IMG/VR virus record: IMGVR_UViG_3300021076_000062
Coordinates: 1 to 29,940 of that record
Length of the DNA stretch: 29,940 nt
From: a virus
Direction: 5' to 3' (one strand)
The notes below the pieces were generated by a model. That model saw only the letters and a program-made list of their open reading frames with translations. It was not told the DNA's origin and made no database searches. Shown one piece after another: positions 8,132-29,940 of this stretch (position 1 is the first letter of the stretch; each line of letters opens with the position of its first letter). Position numbers and translations under genes: made by a program.

Positions 8132-9027
8132 TATTCCTCATCCTCTACAGAATCAACAATTTGTGTGCCTTTGGCGTTAATCTGAAAGTCCAGCTGATGA
8201 ATCGAGGTCTCATCTTGACTTAAGTGATTCTTGGTCACTGTTGCCCTAGATATGATCCCTGATTTCATCGTCACCCCTTTTACAACTTTAGTCAATACTT
8301 TGATTCGCTTTAACATAACTATTAAAGAGGAATGATACTCGATTTTTGTGCCCCCAGATGCGGCATCGCCGTGCTGCATGAAGCCAATCTTGGCATAAGT
8401 CTGATTGGCAAGATATACTGCAATAGTGTCGGGGTACTTGTTAATGAGAGCTACAACGGTCTTCATCACCGACCCATTCTCTTTAGCATCTTGACCTGGT
8501 TGAGCATGTTTCTCATTATCCAGTTCACGCTCAGCATGAGACCGACTTTGAGAGCCTCCTACTGAATCCCAGACAAAGAGGATCTTCTGATCTTCATCTT
8601 GATCCTTAATGGCGGTGATATACCGCCTTACAAGCTCTGCTCCCTTTAGAATCTCATTGGTCTTAACTAGGAGTATTTGTGAAGGATCACCTCCCATCAT
8701 AGTAAGGCGTGAAGCATCGAATTTATCTTCTGAATCCCATAGGATAACTTGTACATCACCCTTTTGTGCTGAAGCCATAGCCTCAGCAGCAAAGGTGGAC
8801 TTACCGCAGTCAGGCTTACCCGCTACCTGTAGTATCTTATTGTATGGTATCCCAGAGAGTCCCATAAGGCTTGCCAAGGGATGTCCCGTTGGTAAAGGAA
8901 CAAGGTCCTTAGCAGTGTACTTTGTCTTTACACTATCACCGGTAGTTATAATGCTTTGGATCTTCTTATCCTTAGCATAAAGCTTCTGCATATCACTAAC
9001 AATCTTACCTATGTTTATATTAGCCAC
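8131..9027 (-). CDS. RecA/UvsX-like recombinase
   Basis: 298 aa. Walker A GKPDCGKST at 70-78, Walker B ILFVWDS at 149-155, an L2-like ANQTYAK segment near 208-214, and TKIEYHSSLIVMLKR typical of the RecA core. The N-terminal region is short and the C-terminus ends in acidic EDEE, as in RecA. It catalyses strand exchange on single-stranded DNA, fed by the SbcCD-like pair and SSB-like protein. The start is GTG at 9027 with AAGGGG about 8 bases upstream; no in-frame ATG fits better. The ribosome binding site lies in a perfect small hairpin (separate entry). Confidence 0.9.
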   Translation of the reverse strand: MANINIGKIVSDMQKLYAKDKKIQSIITTGDSVKTKYTAKDLVPLPTGHPLASLMGLSGIPYNKILQVAGKPDCGKSTFAAEAMASAQKGDVQVILWDSEDKFDASRLTMMGGDPSQILLVKTNEILKGAELVRRYITAIKDQDEDQKILFVWDSVGGSQSRSHAERELDNEKHAQPGQDAKENGSVMKTVVALINKYPDTIAVYLANQTYAKIGFMQHGDAASGGTKIEYHSSLIVMLKRIKVLTKVVKGVTMKSGIISRATVTKNHLSQDETSIHQLDFQINAKGTQIVDSVEDEE

Positions 9028-18585: not shown

Positions 18586-20499
18586 ATGAAAGTCACCGCA
18601 TCTGAAGGCCCAAAGAAAACCATCATAGCCAAGACGGTGGCTCAAAAAGATTCCAAAACCCAGTACAAATGGTGGAAGGCCCCTACACAAGCTGAGGCCG
18701 CCGCTCAGCTCTTAAGCACCGCTGCTTTCTTAAAAGAGACCCAGAACTACCGCCAAAGACAAACAGCCATCTACGCTCGTCTATATGGCAACATGCCACT
18801 CATGTCCTTCATCGGCTCTAACATGTCAAAGATGGACCAGAACCAAGGGCTTCCGACTGACCGCCCTACGTTCAACATAGTGCAATCAGTTATCGACACT
18901 AAAGTAGCCCGCATTGCACAATCTAGGCCAGCACCGGTGTTTCTCACCGACAATGGCAACTATAAAGAGCGTAACTTAGCACAAAAGCTAAATAGCTTCA
19001 TACTCGGTGAATTCTATCAGACTAAAACCTATGAGAAGGCAGCTAAGATCCTAAGAGATGCGTCTGTAACTGGTACTGGTTGTATTAAAGTCTATGAGTC
19101 AGAAGATAACAAAGTCTCTTTAGAACGAGTGCTTTTGACTGAACTCCTCATCGACCCGAATGAGGCCATCTATGGTGACCCAAGACAGCTATACCAATTA
19201 AAGCTAGTTGACCGAACGGTGTTGATAGAACAAATGGGCTCTAAATATCGATCTATCATTGAACGTGCTGAGAATGCATATCCTGATAATTCCTCTGATT
19301 CTTCTAAAACTGTTGCTGACTTAGTTATGGTTGTTGAAGGATGGCATTTAAGATCCGGTAAGAATTCTAAAGACGGCCGCCATACGATAGCCTGTAGCGC
19401 CGGTATTATATTGGATGAAGATTATGACAAAGATAAGTTCCCATTTGTATTTCTACATGATTCTGATCGCTTGCTTGGCTTCTGGTCTCAAGGCGCTGCT
19501 GAGAGGCTCATGGGCACCCAACTTGAAATCAATAGCATCTTATTCACTATATCAAAAGCCATCAAACTAGTCGGTGTACCTAGAGTATTCGTTGAAGATG
19601 GCTCTAAGGTTGTCTCAACATCATTCAATAACGATGTTGGCTCTATAGTTAAATACCGAGGCACAAAGCCTATCTATGAAGTTGCCCCATGTGTACCAGA
19701 AGAGATGTATGCTCAATTACAAAGGTTGATTCAATATGGCTATCAGCAAGAAGGTGTTTCAGAAATGTCGGCGTCAAGCCAGAAACCTGCCGGTCTTAAT
19801 TCTGGTGAAGCTATACGCTCTTACGATGATATTAGCACTGATCGTATGGCTACACTCAGCCGCAAATACGATAACTTCTTTATTGATCTCGCATATGCAA
19901 TAATTGATAAAGCTATTGATATTGCTAAAGAACAAGGCTCTTATCAAACGGTGTTTCCTAATAAAGATTCTACTAAAACTATTGATCTTCCAAACATAGA
20001 GATGCTTAAAGATCCTTTTGTTATCCAATGCTTCAACTCCTCATCCCTCCCGCGTGATCCAGCAGGACGTATGGAAAAGGTCACTGAGATGATGCAATCA
20101 GGCATGATCTCTCTTAAAGAAGGCCGAAGGCTCTTAGATTTCAGTGACTTAAGTCAGATTGAGAAGCTAGCTAATGCTTCAGAAGAACGTATCTTTCAGA
20201 TATTAGATAAGATTATTGATGATGGTGATTATACACCGCCAGATCCATTTCTTGACTTAGCCCTTGCACAAGACCTTACAACACAGTATATCAACCTTTA
20301 CGGTAGCTCTAAGCTTGAAGAAGAGAAGATGCAGATGCTCAGGGACTTCTTTACTCAGATCCAAGCTCTTAAACAAGCAGCTATGCCCCCTGCTGCACCT
20401 CCAGGCGCTCCAGGACAGGCACCAGGAGCAAACGCCCCACAAGCAGTAGCTGCACCCCCAGCTGTAAGCCCAATGCTCCCTAATGCCCCTCAAGGTTAA
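18586..20499 (+). CDS. Portal protein (P22-like)
   Basis: 637 aa, the right size and composition for a podovirus portal. Features: RPTFNIVQSVIDTKVARIAQSRPAP (interleaved here as NIVQSVIDTKVARIA), GTGCIKVYE, LLTELLIDPNEAIYG, then GVPRVFVEDGS and SSSLPRDPAGRMEKV near 500. These are the familiar portal core elements. A Pro/Ala-rich tail (about 600-637) is disordered. It forms the dodecameric DNA channel at the head vertex, docking the terminase during packaging and the tail afterwards. Confidence 0.9.
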   Translation: MKVTASEGPKKTIIAKTVAQKDSKTQYKWWKAPTQAEAAAQLLSTAAFLKETQNYRQRQTAIYARLYGNMPLMSFIGSNMSKMDQNQGLPTDRPTFNIVQSVIDTKVARIAQSRPAPVFLTDNGNYKERNLAQKLNSFILGEFYQTKTYEKAAKILRDASVTGTGCIKVYESEDNKVSLERVLLTELLIDPNEAIYGDPRQLYQLKLVDRTVLIEQMGSKYRSIIERAENAYPDNSSDSSKTVADLVMVVEGWHLRSGKNSKDGRHTIACSAGIILDEDYDKDKFPFVFLHDSDRLLGFWSQGAAERLMGTQLEINSILFTISKAIKLVGVPRVFVEDGSKVVSTSFNNDVGSIVKYRGTKPIYEVAPCVPEEMYAQLQRLIQYGYQQEGVSEMSASSQKPAGLNSGEAIRSYDDISTDRMATLSRKYDNFFIDLAYAIIDKAIDIAKEQGSYQTVFPNKDSTKTIDLPNIEMLKDPFVIQCFNSSSLPRDPAGRMEKVTEMMQSGMISLKEGRRLLDFSDLSQIEKLANASEERIFQILDKIIDDGDYTPPDPFLDLALAQDLTTQYINLYGSSKLEEEKMQMLRDFFTQIQALKQAAMPPAAPPGAPGQAPGANAPQAVAAPPAVSPMLPNAPQG

Positions 20500-20500
20500 T

Positions 20501-20653
20501 ATGAACCTAGCCTGCATCAGTAAAGAACACTGTTCTCTTTGCAAGAACGTAACTCAAATTAAACGAGTTAAAGAAATTGATTGGAAAGCCATTTCCATAG
20601 CCCTTGGTACACTGGTGCTGCTGCTAGTCACCGGTATAATTCTCAAGAAATAG
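20501..20653 (+). CDS. 50-aa C-tail-anchored membrane peptide
   Basis: Read by hand. ATG one base after the portal stop, with AAGG. N-terminal segment has CISKEHCSLCKN (cysteines at 5, 11, 14), possible metal or lipid interaction; residues 28-48 form one transmembrane helix (WKAISIALGTLVLLLVTGIIL) ended by KK. Small holin-like or virion-associated membrane protein is conceivable. No family recognised. Confidence 0.6.
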   Translation: MNLACISKEHCSLCKNVTQIKRVKEIDWKAISIALGTLVLLLVTGIILKK

Positions 20654-20692
20654 ACTGTAAGTCTATATCCCTAAGTAGCGACAAACCAAACC

Positions 20693-20710
20693 GCATTCTT
20701 GACTGAATGC
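20693..20710 (+). promoter_or_regulatory. Small hairpin before the scaffold gene
   Basis: GCATTC-TTGACT-GAATGC, perfect 6-bp stem. No T-run follows and no -10 stands 17 bases from TTGACT, so neither a terminator nor a promoter is convincing. It may stabilise or process the mRNA between portal and scaffold. Confidence 0.35.
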
Positions 20711-20733
20711 TTATAGTAATGAAAGAAGACCTT

Positions 20734-27029: not shown

Positions 27030-27428
27030 ATGTCTAATTTCAATTATCGTTCACAATTTCATTCTAGTTACGCTGGTCAGATGGTGTCTTTACTCGCTAA
27101 GATAAGCATCGGAGCTTCTGGAGCCCCTACTCTTATTCCAAACACTGGTATGGGTATTGCTTCTATCGTTCGTAACTCTGCTGGTAACTATACCATTAAT
27201 CTTTCTAATACATTCTACTCCTTGATGGGAGTACGAGTGACAAACGTTTCAGGTGCATCGGCTCCCGCTGCCCCACTCGTCAACGTAGCTGTAGACGCAG
27301 TTAAAGTTGCTGCCGCACCGCTTGTTACAATCCAGACTCGAAATGTTAGTAATGCTGCAACGGATCCAGCATCTGGAGAGATACTTCAGATTGAACTCTT
27401 ACTCAACAGAAGTTCTACAGGCAATTAA
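27030..27428 (+). CDS. Conserved virion protein, decoration-type, 132 aa
   Basis: MSNFNYRSQFHSSYAGQMV, AKISIGASGAPTLIP then GIASIVRNSAGNYTINLSNTFYSLMG is a pattern shared by small beta-rich structural proteins (Q-F-H-x-S and ASGAPTL-GxGIxSVxRNSAG) in podovirus-type phages. Beta-sandwich likely, Ala/Thr rich; candidate head decoration protein. Position after head genes and before the adaptor agrees. Confidence 0.72.
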   Translation: MSNFNYRSQFHSSYAGQMVSLLAKISIGASGAPTLIPNTGMGIASIVRNSAGNYTINLSNTFYSLMGVRVTNVSGASAPAAPLVNVAVDAVKVAAAPLVTIQTRNVSNAATDPASGEILQIELLLNRSSTGN

Positions 27429-27633
27429 TAAGTTTATAGGGTGCCCCAGCGTCTAATTAGCGCCCGGGTTAAATGCGTGACCAGCCCTATGTTTTAGTTT
27501 CGGGTGGTGCCTTTCGTTAATAGCGTCGGGCTAAGTGTGATATCGTAAAGGACGTCGCAGCCACCCACACAAAGTGACCACAAGAAGCCGGGAGAAGGTT
27601 GTACGTGTAGGTCTCCCGGCTTAGAGGATTTAA
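27429..27633 (+). ncRNA. Large structured intergenic RNA, 205 bases
   Basis: No gene on either strand. Domain 1: ATAGGG/CCCTAT (27436-27441 with 27485-27490). Domain 2: GGGTGG/CCACCC (27502-27507 with 27561-27566), then TGC/GCA past a bulged G and CCTTT/AAAGG (27510-27514 with 27547-27551), inner hairpin TAGC/GCTA. Domain 3: AAGCCGGGAG/CTCCCGGCTT (27585-27594 with 27613-27622), directly before ribosome binding site AGAGGA. Several long-range perfect pairings in a GC-rich stretch support a folded RNA. Confidence 0.5.
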
Positions 27634-28683
27634 ATGAGCATTCCAGGCATACCAAACAATCTAATTGGGCAAACAGGTAATCAACAAAACTACTTGTCCT
27701 GGTCGCCATCCTCAGGCGCTACGTCCTATGCTATCCAAGTCTCAACTGATGGTATGAACTTCAGTGCTCTTGGGACTTCTACCTCAAACTCTTATGTGGA
27801 TACAGCAGCCGTCATTGGTACCGCTTATTATTATACAGTTCAATCAGTTAACATTTCAGGCAGCAGTCCATCATCACCAGTCGTAGGGCCGTTGGTTCCC
27901 GCACCAACCGGTGAGATGTCCTTAGCCTCCCTGCGCTTAGCCTCACAGCAGAAGGCTGATAGAATCAACTCCCAGTTCGTCACCACACAAGAGTGGAACA
28001 CATTCATTAACCTAGCAATGAATGAGCTTTATGATTTACTCATTACCACCTATGAAGACTACTTCATGGCGCCTAGGATACAGTTCATAGCGCCAGGAAA
28101 TACCTCCATATTCGCTCTACCTAACGGATCTAATCAGTTCTTAAGCTACCCTAACCAAGGACCAGCCTTTACACCAGCTCCTTTCTATAAGCTCCTCGGT
28201 GTAGACCTTGGGCTTCAAAACGCCAATAATGCCTTTGTCACCATCAACAAATACAATTTAATAGATAGAAATAGATTCGTATTCCCTAATACCGCCTCAA
28301 CCATTTATGGCGTATTCAACCTCCAATATCGTTTATTGGGGACTAACATTGAGTTTATACCGACGCCATCAGGTGGCCAAGTTCTTCAGATCCTTTACAT
28401 TCCCCGCCTTCCTCTTTTAATGCTTGATACAGACATCACTACCATTGGCTTCAGTGGATGGTTAGAGTATGTAATTGTTAGGGCTGCTAAATATGCACTT
28501 GATAAAGAAGAATCAGACACAACGAAGCTAACAGAAGAGATTCTGTTCATTCAGAAACGTATTGAAGATACCGCTCCTAACAGAGATGCAGGACAACCGG
28601 ATCGAGTCAGTGACATACGCCAAGGCCGAGGCTGGGGCGATGGTGGTGGCTTCGGACAAAACGGCGCGATTGGTGGATTCTAA
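27634..28683 (+). CDS. Fn3-domain fusion to conserved phage adaptor-like protein, 349 aa
   Basis: Residues about 4-85 look like fibronectin type III (NYLSWSPSSGATSYAIQVS, AYYYTVQSVNISGSS, and final SPVVGP). Residues 95-349 are a widespread podovirus virion core beginning LASLRLASQQKADRINSQF, TQEWNTFINLAMNELYDLLI and later LLPIDGF-like ITTIGFSGWLEYVIVRAAKYALDKEE. The C-terminus is Gly-rich. Such cores fit head-tail connector or neck proteins, and Fn3 modules on virions mediate weak surface adhesion. Ribosome binding site AGAGGA. Confidence 0.72.
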   Translation: MSIPGIPNNLIGQTGNQQNYLSWSPSSGATSYAIQVSTDGMNFSALGTSTSNSYVDTAAVIGTAYYYTVQSVNISGSSPSSPVVGPLVPAPTGEMSLASLRLASQQKADRINSQFVTTQEWNTFINLAMNELYDLLITTYEDYFMAPRIQFIAPGNTSIFALPNGSNQFLSYPNQGPAFTPAPFYKLLGVDLGLQNANNAFVTINKYNLIDRNRFVFPNTASTIYGVFNLQYRLLGTNIEFIPTPSGGQVLQILYIPRLPLLMLDTDITTIGFSGWLEYVIVRAAKYALDKEESDTTKLTEEILFIQKRIEDTAPNRDAGQPDRVSDIRQGRGWGDGGGFGQNGAIGGF

Positions 28684-28979
28684 TGGCCCTCCCCCTTTTC
28701 AATTTCAGTGACCGCAATCAACAAATGATGCAGAGTCAATGGGCTTCGCAGATTAACCCAGTATTAGCTAACCCGCTTACCTCTCCTAGGATACTAAAGA
28801 ATATTGCTTTAACCACCGGAGTCAACGTCATCAACACCGGGTTACAAGCAATGCAACAAGGATGGATTATCTCTGACCAAAGTGCCGCAGCCTCAATCTA
28901 TAGGTCTGCTGCTTTTAATGACTTAACTTTAACTTTAACCTCTAGTGCTCCTTGCACTATTAACTTAGTGGTGTACTAA
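28683..28979 (+). CDS. Conserved small virion protein, 98 aa
   Basis: PLFNFSDRNQQMMQSQWASQINPVL, LKNIALTTGVNVINTGLQ-MQQGWIISDQSAAASIYR, and a beta C-terminus. The LxGVNxINHxL-QGWxI pattern is shared by small proteins between neck and tail-fibre genes in podovirus-type phages. Probably structural. ATGs overlap neighbours by one base. Confidence 0.75.
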   Translation: MALPLFNFSDRNQQMMQSQWASQINPVLANPLTSPRILKNIALTTGVNVINTGLQAMQQGWIISDQSAAASIYRSAAFNDLTLTLTSSAPCTINLVVY

Positions 28980-29940
28980 TGTCAAACGACGGCTCTATAA
29001 CAACCCCAAACATGGGTCTATTAAATCCAGTACCAGGTGTTACACCGGGGCAAGCTTATGCCTCAGATATTTACACCTCATTAACTTTAATCGATTCCCA
29101 CGATCATACCTTAAACAAAGGCGTGCAGCTTACTCCTCTTTCTTTAAACATCAACTCAGCACTCAACATGGCCGGTGTCGGAAGCTCAACCCCTCAAATC
29201 CTCTTAAATACACAAGCAGTGAACTTCGTACCTCAAACAACTAATGCTGCTATCAATAGTATTTTCTTTAAGGGGACAGAATTATGGGTAACCGATGGGG
29301 TCAATAATCATATACAAATAACTGCTGCAGGAGTTGTAAATGCCACGGGCAGCGGTGTTACAAACGGCCTTGCTACAGCAGCCTTCAATGGTTCAAATAA
29401 TCTACAATTATTCTATGATATCGGGGGTCTTGCCACTTCAATAGACACAGGAAATGTATTACTTAGAAACTTATCTCCTAACTCTACATATGCATTAACT
29501 CTGTCAGCTCCTAACTTAACAGCAAGCTATCAAGTTACCTTACCCACTTTACCTGGTGTTCAAGGGCCTTTGATAATGAGCACCTCCGGTGAACTAATCC
29601 CAACTACTTATGATCAAGTAGGATTAGATATGGGGGCCTTAGGATCTAATAACATCTTAAACTCTTTTACTGGAATCTCTCAAGGCCAAGCAAATATAAT
29701 TGCAGAACAAGTAACTACAGTTGGAGCTGATTCTATAGCAGGTCAGATGTCTTTTGTAGGTGTTAATTATATATTCAATAGTGTTAGCTCAGTAACTAAC
29801 ACCACAGCAAATCTTGTAGCCAGCAGCATGTCAGCTACAGGTGCAAATGATGTTGCTAGTCTTATGACCACTAGCTCTGGTGTTACTTCTATGGTCAGCC
29901 AATTCAGCAACGCGAATTGCAACACTATTGCATCTGGTAT
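28979..29940 (+). CDS. Tail fibre or tail appendage protein, N-terminal 320 aa, cut by window edge
   Basis: Read by hand; open through the edge. The start region has SDIYTSLTLIDSHDHTLNKGV, the phage fibre signature (xSLxxIDxHDHxxGKGV), followed by beta-rich, Ser/Thr/Asn/Gly-rich sequence typical of fibre shafts. No enzymatic motif in the part seen. Stop-start overlap with the previous gene (TAATG). Likely carries the receptor-binding domain beyond the edge. Confidence 0.85.
   Translation, partial: MSNDGSITTPNMGLLNPVPGVTPGQAYASDIYTSLTLIDSHDHTLNKGVQLTPLSLNINSALNMAGVGSSTPQILLNTQAVNFVPQTTNAAINSIFFKGTELWVTDGVNNHIQITAAGVVNATGSGVTNGLATAAFNGSNNLQLFYDIGGLATSIDTGNVLLRNLSPNSTYALTLSAPNLTASYQVTLPTLPGVQGPLIMSTSGELIPTTYDQVGLDMGALGSNNILNSFTGISQGQANIIAEQVTTVGADSIAGQMSFVGVNYIFNSVSSVTNTTANLVASSMSATGANDVASLMTTSSGVTSMVSQFSNANCNTIASG

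Follow-up and report, generated by a model that had tools for sequence, protein, structure and literature searches.

Phage particles hold hundreds of capsid copies against about a dozen connector copies, and the two proteins are encoded by neighbouring genes. In T7, an intrinsic terminator for the phage polymerase lies after gene 10 and before gene 11, and to our knowledge this terminator carries no conserved loop or linear block. Lambda-type nut sites combine a linear block (boxA) with a hairpin (boxB). In SU10 (KM044272), a predicted terminator is annotated at 8934-8970, in the spacer between the Ig-like gene and the gene in the adaptor position, and a late promoter motif is described in the spacer between CDS10 and CDS11 (PMC4281155), so that this place forms a boundary in expression between the head genes and the tail genes. 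For the end of the SU10 capsid gene, a slippage site and its stem-loop have been described (PMC4281155), and we noted a strong fold (-44.7 kcal/mol for 126 nt; L331 2410-2535) between the annotated capsid and Ig-like genes of this phage. Other phage leaders also carry hairpins: those of the UUCGG type precede the sigma genes in 7-11 and GAP52, and T4 has a stabilising one (PMC8948821).

Here we describe a structured spacer in an uncultivated short-tailed phage, known from a virus record of 29,940 bases that was analysed over its whole length (hereafter, the window). Its virion genes would group with those of SU10-like short-tailed phages, judging by weak to borderline Pfam matches: the SU10 MCP family scored 24.1 bits, exactly at the cut-off of 24.1, the SU10 portal family 21.5 bits, under the cut-off of 30, and SU10_adaptor 22.7 bits in the 349-aa protein (E 1.5e-4; cut-off 27). 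Neither the adaptor nor the capsid protein had a tblastn match among named phages, nor did the spacer with its flanks have one by blastn; the blastn matches listed at E<=10 are short fragments, nearly all within annotated genes. The spacer and the two genes that enclose it are as follows.

27030..27428, + strand: upstream gene, 132 aa, no family assigned, with the size and place of the Ig-like SU10_010
27429..27633, + strand: the structured spacer as a whole, flanked by the head-side 132-aa gene and the adaptor gene
27634..28683, + strand: downstream gene, 349 aa, with an N-terminal Fn3-like part and an SU10-type adaptor (head-tail connector) part

The spacer is the exact gap between the two ORFs, and the 132-aa protein has no meaningful sequence match to SU10_010. 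The initial annotation had described the interval as gene-free and GC-richer than its surroundings, and both descriptions held: it contains no sense ORF of at least 25 aa, bar the tail of one overlapping out-of-frame ORF (49 aa, 27307-27456), and its GC content is 0.51, as against 0.29-0.45 in the 15 other listed spacers of at least 40 nt. An antisense ORF of 71 aa (27494-27709) was discarded, being without counterpart in L043, the relative with the longest spacer. Further upstream, an island of about 10 small, mostly sense ORFs (23361-26906) separates the capsid gene from the 132-aa gene; in another relative (L012), a 127-aa homologue of the 132-aa gene comes immediately after the capsid gene. 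A twin contig overlaps the window over 9,533 positions and differs at 41 of them, none within the spacer, which is too few differences to be informative. One dense cluster of these differences (25972-26079) lies inside the small-ORF island, and a second (29660-29729) falls within an open 320-aa ORF after the adaptor and is possibly a variable tail part.

Three stem domains had been proposed for this interval, and all three are present when checked base by base. The accompanying argument, that this was too much structure for a spacer, found weak support in folding energy, and the excess over chance comes from comparison instead: the whole interval folds with an MFE of -67 kcal/mol (z -1.90 on the + strand; 8 of 200 shuffles equally good), the opposite strand folds at z -2.30, and a spacer elsewhere in the window (21724-21952) is far more extreme at z -6.5. 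When the window was searched with Rfam 15 (4227 models, ribozymes and riboswitches included) at gathering scores, the only match was a tRNA; 26880-27700 gave no match up to E 10, and six related loci gave merely two, both far below gathering scores. No report of motif C or the junction elements described below was found in the literature searched, which does not prove their absence from it. Judged by pairs that are preserved through matching changes in distant relatives, the spacer nevertheless appears to be a genuine working RNA and not random sequence.

The part of the spacer nearest to the adaptor gene, domain 3 (27569-27624), holds a conserved element, motif C, composed of a linear GCGUNANCACAAG-like block and an 11-bp hairpin.

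27569..27584, + strand: motif C linear block ACAAAGUGACCACAAG (consensus of relatives ACAGCGUNANCACAAG)
27585..27622, + strand: motif C hairpin, 11 bp with a 16-nt loop AGGTTGTACGTGTAGG, identified by blind R2 match and covariation
27623..27628, + strand: AGAGGA, ribosome-binding sequence for the adaptor gene, adjoining the 3' end of the motif C hairpin

The stem is a perfect 11 bp (arms 27585-27595 and 27612-27622). A last hairpin before the adaptor ribosome-binding site had been recognised earlier and is present, although the four-base gap then claimed is not, as the hairpin directly abuts AGAGGA (27623-27628). The GCGUNANCACAAG block, together with a hairpin whose loop is GUUCAAACAGU-like, is common to seven relatives, in which RNAalifold found 11 pairs, every one with a compensatory change. 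A covariance model (R2) built from these seven, with the window left out, matched the window at 27569-27624 with 34.6 bits (E 2.2e-6), clearly above background, the next best match in the whole window reaching 7.6 bits. Further R2 matches were found in L043 (38.5 bits) and, upstream of a scaffold gene, in G046 (27.8 bits). Across 10 sequences, all 11 stem pairs are changed on both sides, which is the covariation in homologous intervals that the initial annotation had proposed to look for; the share of cells paired is 98.1% in the model-fitted alignment and 81.7% in an independent MAFFT alignment, and 0 of 500 shuffles reach either value. The loop is RGTTCAAACAGTNGA-like in most relatives; set against the GUUCAAACAGU-like form, the loop of the window keeps GGUU and a later GU and does not keep AAACAGU.

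Fifty records, of 79 in the first list, were searched whole; motif C is present in nine of them (the seven R2 training sequences, with L043 and G046 as new), one copy each, and in none of the other 41. All nine copies run in the sense direction of the late genes, eight of them in the spacer that precedes the adaptor gene and the ninth (G046) ahead of the scaffold gene, so motif C is not adaptor-specific. On an adaptor tree of 85 rows, the nine rows with motif C (the window's twin in, G046 out) are scattered among rows without it, which suggests an old element that is often lost or replaced, or a mobile one. A tRNA-Met gene lies in the head-tail spacer of L082 (4835-4909), directly before motif C, its last bases overlapping the model match. 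A motif C pattern scan returned at least 76 new loci, and among the matches listed only L242 (again the G046 site) is a clear motif C; also among those listed, L212 reached 26.5 bits, yet its arm does not rank among the best 12 in the stem check; L197 has a 12-pair arm, yet only 17.6 bits. A pattern match in L167, inside a coding frame and without a stem, and a site at 1704 of L118, a hairpin with a T-run and a weak block match, were likewise rejected. The linear block followed by any hairpin showed no excess over the opposite strand.

To place the window among its relatives, adaptor loci were collected by adaptor protein and alignment scans (9, 80 and 80 loci) and identical start contexts were merged, leaving 86 loci, of which 83 have an upstream ORF and hence a measured spacer; the spacer counts cover only loci whose upstream ORF lies inside the stretch retrieved. 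Spacer lengths range from -1 to 282 nt, and the two longest are those of L043 (282 nt; adaptor 55% identical) and the window (205 nt). Since 28 of the 83 gaps are shorter than 40 nt, and L012 has a stop/start overlap in place of a spacer, the long form is lineage-specific, as well as rare, and no such element is required for the adaptor operon. The initial annotation had held that loss of the interval in related phages, with no covariation, would speak against a structured RNA; many relatives do indeed lack the long interval, but the covariation is there.

The 78 distinct spacers include 55 of at least 40 nt, and 44 of these carry a hairpin of at least 7 bp. The gap between the nearest such hairpin and the start codon has a median of 16 nt (IQR 15-19) and is hardly related to spacer length (rho 0.09), whereas the gap from the upstream stop to the hairpin grows with it (rho 0.71). 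The hairpin position is locked to the downstream gene, and part of this lock is expected anyway, because hairpins must leave the ribosome-binding site free. The string TT.?AAA occurs in the loops of 12 of these 44 nearest hairpins, whereas shuffled loops would yield 1.1; several of these hairpins may thus be motif C in decayed form. A T-rich stretch follows the nearest hairpin in 11 of the 44 (e.g. L007, L080). A separate covarying RNA element of 45-60 nt, motif A, precedes the adaptor gene in six relatives belonging to one clade (L016, L017, L024, L028, L100, L108), with the invariants GUGCG..CGCUUAAAG..CGC, the layout P1-U-GCG..CGC-UUAAAG..CG-P1' and six P1 pairs changed on both sides; it was found in 3 of 50 records. 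Domain 1 of the window was rejected as a copy of motif A, as it is absent among the 11 matches of the motif A model (R1) up to E 10 with filters off, and R1 gave one marginal overlap with domain 2 (7.9 bits, E 8.9).

Domains 1 and 2 follow a different design, a three-way junction, and precede motif C in tandem.

27435..27491, + strand: domain 1, three-way-junction RNA, with the same register and compensatory changes in L043
27435-27442/27484-27491, + strand: domain 1 P1, closing arms TATAGGGT/GCCCTATG
27443-27446/27466-27469, + strand: domain 1 P2
27449-27451/27461-27463, + strand: domain 1 inner stem
27470-27473, + strand: domain 1 junction UAAA, followed by a short P3 (27474-27475/27482-27483)
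27502..27566, + strand: domain 2, likely a second copy of the same three-way-junction design, from solo fold, descriptor scan and R3
27502-27508/27560-27566, + strand: domain 2 P1, GGGTGGT/GCCACCC, span 65
27509-27512/27528-27531, + strand: domain 2 P2, followed by junction UAAG (27532-27535) and P3 (27536-27541/27554-27559)

The plan common to the junction copies is P1..GGU, P2, UAAR, UG..CA, G..P1'. Folded alone, domain 2 reaches z -3.3, with 0 of 200 shuffles equally good, and domain 1 is weak (z -1.2). Domain 1 aligns without gaps to the first 63 nt after the L043 stop codon, with 32 of 60 identities, the conserved strings GGUGC, CUAAUUA and GUUAAAUGC, and P1, P2 and the inner stem in the same columns; among the 16 pairs listed, six are changed on both sides yet paired, three are unpaired in L043 and one is unpaired in the window. 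At this fixed register 0 of 20000 shuffles reach 32/60 (best of 8 offsets), yet chance attains 34/60 somewhere among 2.6 million positions of other loci, and the case for domain 1 in L043 therefore rests on synteny and compensatory pairs. Homology of the whole interval to L043 by sequence only was unconvincing, with 154 of 2000 shuffles as good under strict settings and 25 of 2000 under loose ones.

A pattern scan with the strands shared by domain 1 and L043 found 41 stretches, namely the window's twin, L043 and 39 others. One of the 39 (L313) has a closing helix of 17 pairs outside the pattern, the next best of the 41 being the window's twin with 7; in 41,000 trials with shuffled flanks, none reached 17 pairs and 129 reached 10. 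The L313 element folds as a three-way junction (z -5.5) and is flanked by two small genes, near replication-type genes on a phage contig that encodes primase and exonuclease; we detected no adaptor relative on this contig and no match of its surroundings to a named phage or plasmid. A junction descriptor applied to 5.7 Mb matched domain 1, domain 2, L313 and one apparent chance site, and gave two matches in block-shuffled sequence of three times 5.7 Mb; because the first three helped define the family, in which P1 and P2 covary, their descriptor matches are not blind. A model of the family (R3) scored domain 1 at 58.4 bits and domain 2 at 39.3 bits, both being training members, and the held-out second domain of L043 at 15.8 bits, which corresponds to E 1.9 over 800 kb and to E 6.7e-4 over the spacer alone; on the minus strand of that spacer, another match scores 11.7 bits. 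R3 matched 3 of 50 records, all three already known, and a search under stricter filters of 149 genomes from the phylum to which L090 (an Actinomycetales MAG) belongs, an arbitrary group, found no junction. Domains 1 and 2 thus likely share one three-way-junction family with L043 and L313, amounting to four strong copies. The spacer of L043 has at least three domains, and the three-domain form is known solely from L043 and the window lineage. As a description, the multi-domain structured RNA of the initial annotation is borne out by the compensatory changes and blind model match of motif C and by the junction fold kept in L043 and L313. The functions that it put forward, a late translational switch, an RNA processing site or a packaging or virion-associated RNA, are candidates only.

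We consider that the spacer is, with a probability of roughly 50%, a composite cis-acting boundary element of the late polycistronic mRNA, acting after transcription at the border between head and tail genes. Its order would be two tandem three-way-junction domains, then motif C against the adaptor ribosome-binding site. Motif C, like other hairpins in most long-spacer relatives, could give the adaptor cistron a defined 5' leader; through RNase cleavage or protein binding, the tail message would be parted from the abundant head message, and this separation may set the stability or translation of the tail part, with the junction domains as an extra protein- or ligand-binding platform in this lineage. 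Motif C itself has a conserved structure, lies in sense orientation, occurs in single copy and keeps a fixed place beside the downstream start; processing or protein binding, and an effect on head-to-tail stoichiometry, are what we infer from these properties. That the spacer holds neither a terminator-like nor a tAATGTAtA site favours a post-transcriptional element, whereas the terminator-like T-rich stretch behind 11 of the 44 nearest hairpins counts against it. At a boundary where SU10 has a predicted terminator and a promoter, its uncultivated relative would then appear to use a conserved RNA absent from Rfam, including a junction module also carried by an unrelated phage, and, as the elements are short and suited to reporters, control of the head-to-tail ratio in such phages is directly testable.

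A more ambitious version, which we offer tentatively and hold to be rather less than probable, is that a new class of small three-way-junction RNA, found in unrelated phages, is represented by domains 1 and 2 in tandem, and that such copies are strung together with motif C as interchangeable modules of a post-transcriptional control region that works as a protein or ligand switch or a processing element, not as a terminator.

It is unlikely, in our estimate, that the spacer acts instead as a transcription terminator or attenuator holding tail-gene expression below capsid expression, for which the annotated SU10 terminator in the syntenic spacer, the parallel of the T7 gene 10 terminator and the T-rich stretches behind 11 of 44 hairpins in relatives would speak. 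A terminator search of 27429-27633 found no site, and a GC-rich stem followed by a U-run is not seen there, as motif C is followed by AGAGGATTTAAATG; the lone sense-strand terminator-like site in 20000-29940 is at 23279-23310, a strong intrinsic terminator of 14 pairs and then a T-run, just past the major capsid gene. Motif C also keeps a loop and a linear block that would be superfluous in a plain terminator, and in G046 it precedes a scaffold gene. The phiEco32/SU10 late promoter tAATGTAtA has eight matches in the window with at most one mismatch and none in the spacer, although the phage's own sigma factor may differ. The SU10 spacer thus resembles that of the window in its place, after the head-side Ig-like gene and before the gene in adaptor position, and in having a GC hairpin, but it differs in combining a U-run terminator with a tAATGTAt promoter, whereas the window has two junction domains and motif C and neither SU10 signal in this spacer. 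The T7 site likewise marks the capsid/tail gene boundary of a short-tailed phage, but as an intrinsic terminator not known to have a conserved loop or linear block. Like a lambda nut site, motif C is a conserved linear block followed by a conserved-loop hairpin, but its block sequence is another, it stands mid-operon beside a ribosome-binding site, and no antiterminator partner was identified. The 5'-leader hairpins of 7-11, GAP52 and T4 resemble motif C in being short and intergenic, with a proposed effect on stability or translation, but, as far as PMC8948821 describes them, they have another loop and another place, and neither a linear block nor junction domains.

Excision of a trans-acting or virion-associated small RNA from the late transcript (for packaging, scaffold or anti-host functions) strikes us as improbable: the three domains of the window, the three or more of L043 and the GC-richness would suit it, and the tRNA gene adjoining motif C in L082 makes RNA excision there plausible, but most relatives retain just a short hairpin or nothing, there is no Rfam match, and no finding indicates a packaging or virion RNA. 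We give equally little weight to the idea that the three-way junctions are ligand-binding riboswitches or self-cleaving ribozymes. Such RNAs would account for a compact junction in which the strands GGU, UAAR, UG and G are invariant and the paired arms vary, and for its presence between two small genes in an unrelated phage, but Rfam again gave no match, no metabolic gene is associated, and the strong copies number only four.

Very doubtful is an element acting at the DNA level, with a single-strand hairpin used in recombination, integration or replication; hairpins that covary and keep their loops suit single-stranded DNA sites too, and motif C is scattered over the adaptor tree and stands elsewhere in G046, but it is always in late-gene sense, one per record and mostly beside a ribosome-binding site. 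We give almost no credence to an ordinary spacer with chance hairpins, for although the whole-interval z is just -1.9 and the sequence-only alignment to L043 is weak, the blind R2 match and covariation refute chance hairpins for motif C, unless the matches are artefacts.

Two further spacers of the window are also structured. The one before the 132-aa gene (26907-27029) has no meaningful match to motif C or motif A, and holds hairpins too (e.g. CCTAAAC..GTTTAGG). The one preceding the major capsid gene (21724-21952), in which R1 and R2 give no meaningful score, contains tandem hairpins, including GTACCCCC..GGGTAC, and is the most strongly folded among the spacers tested.
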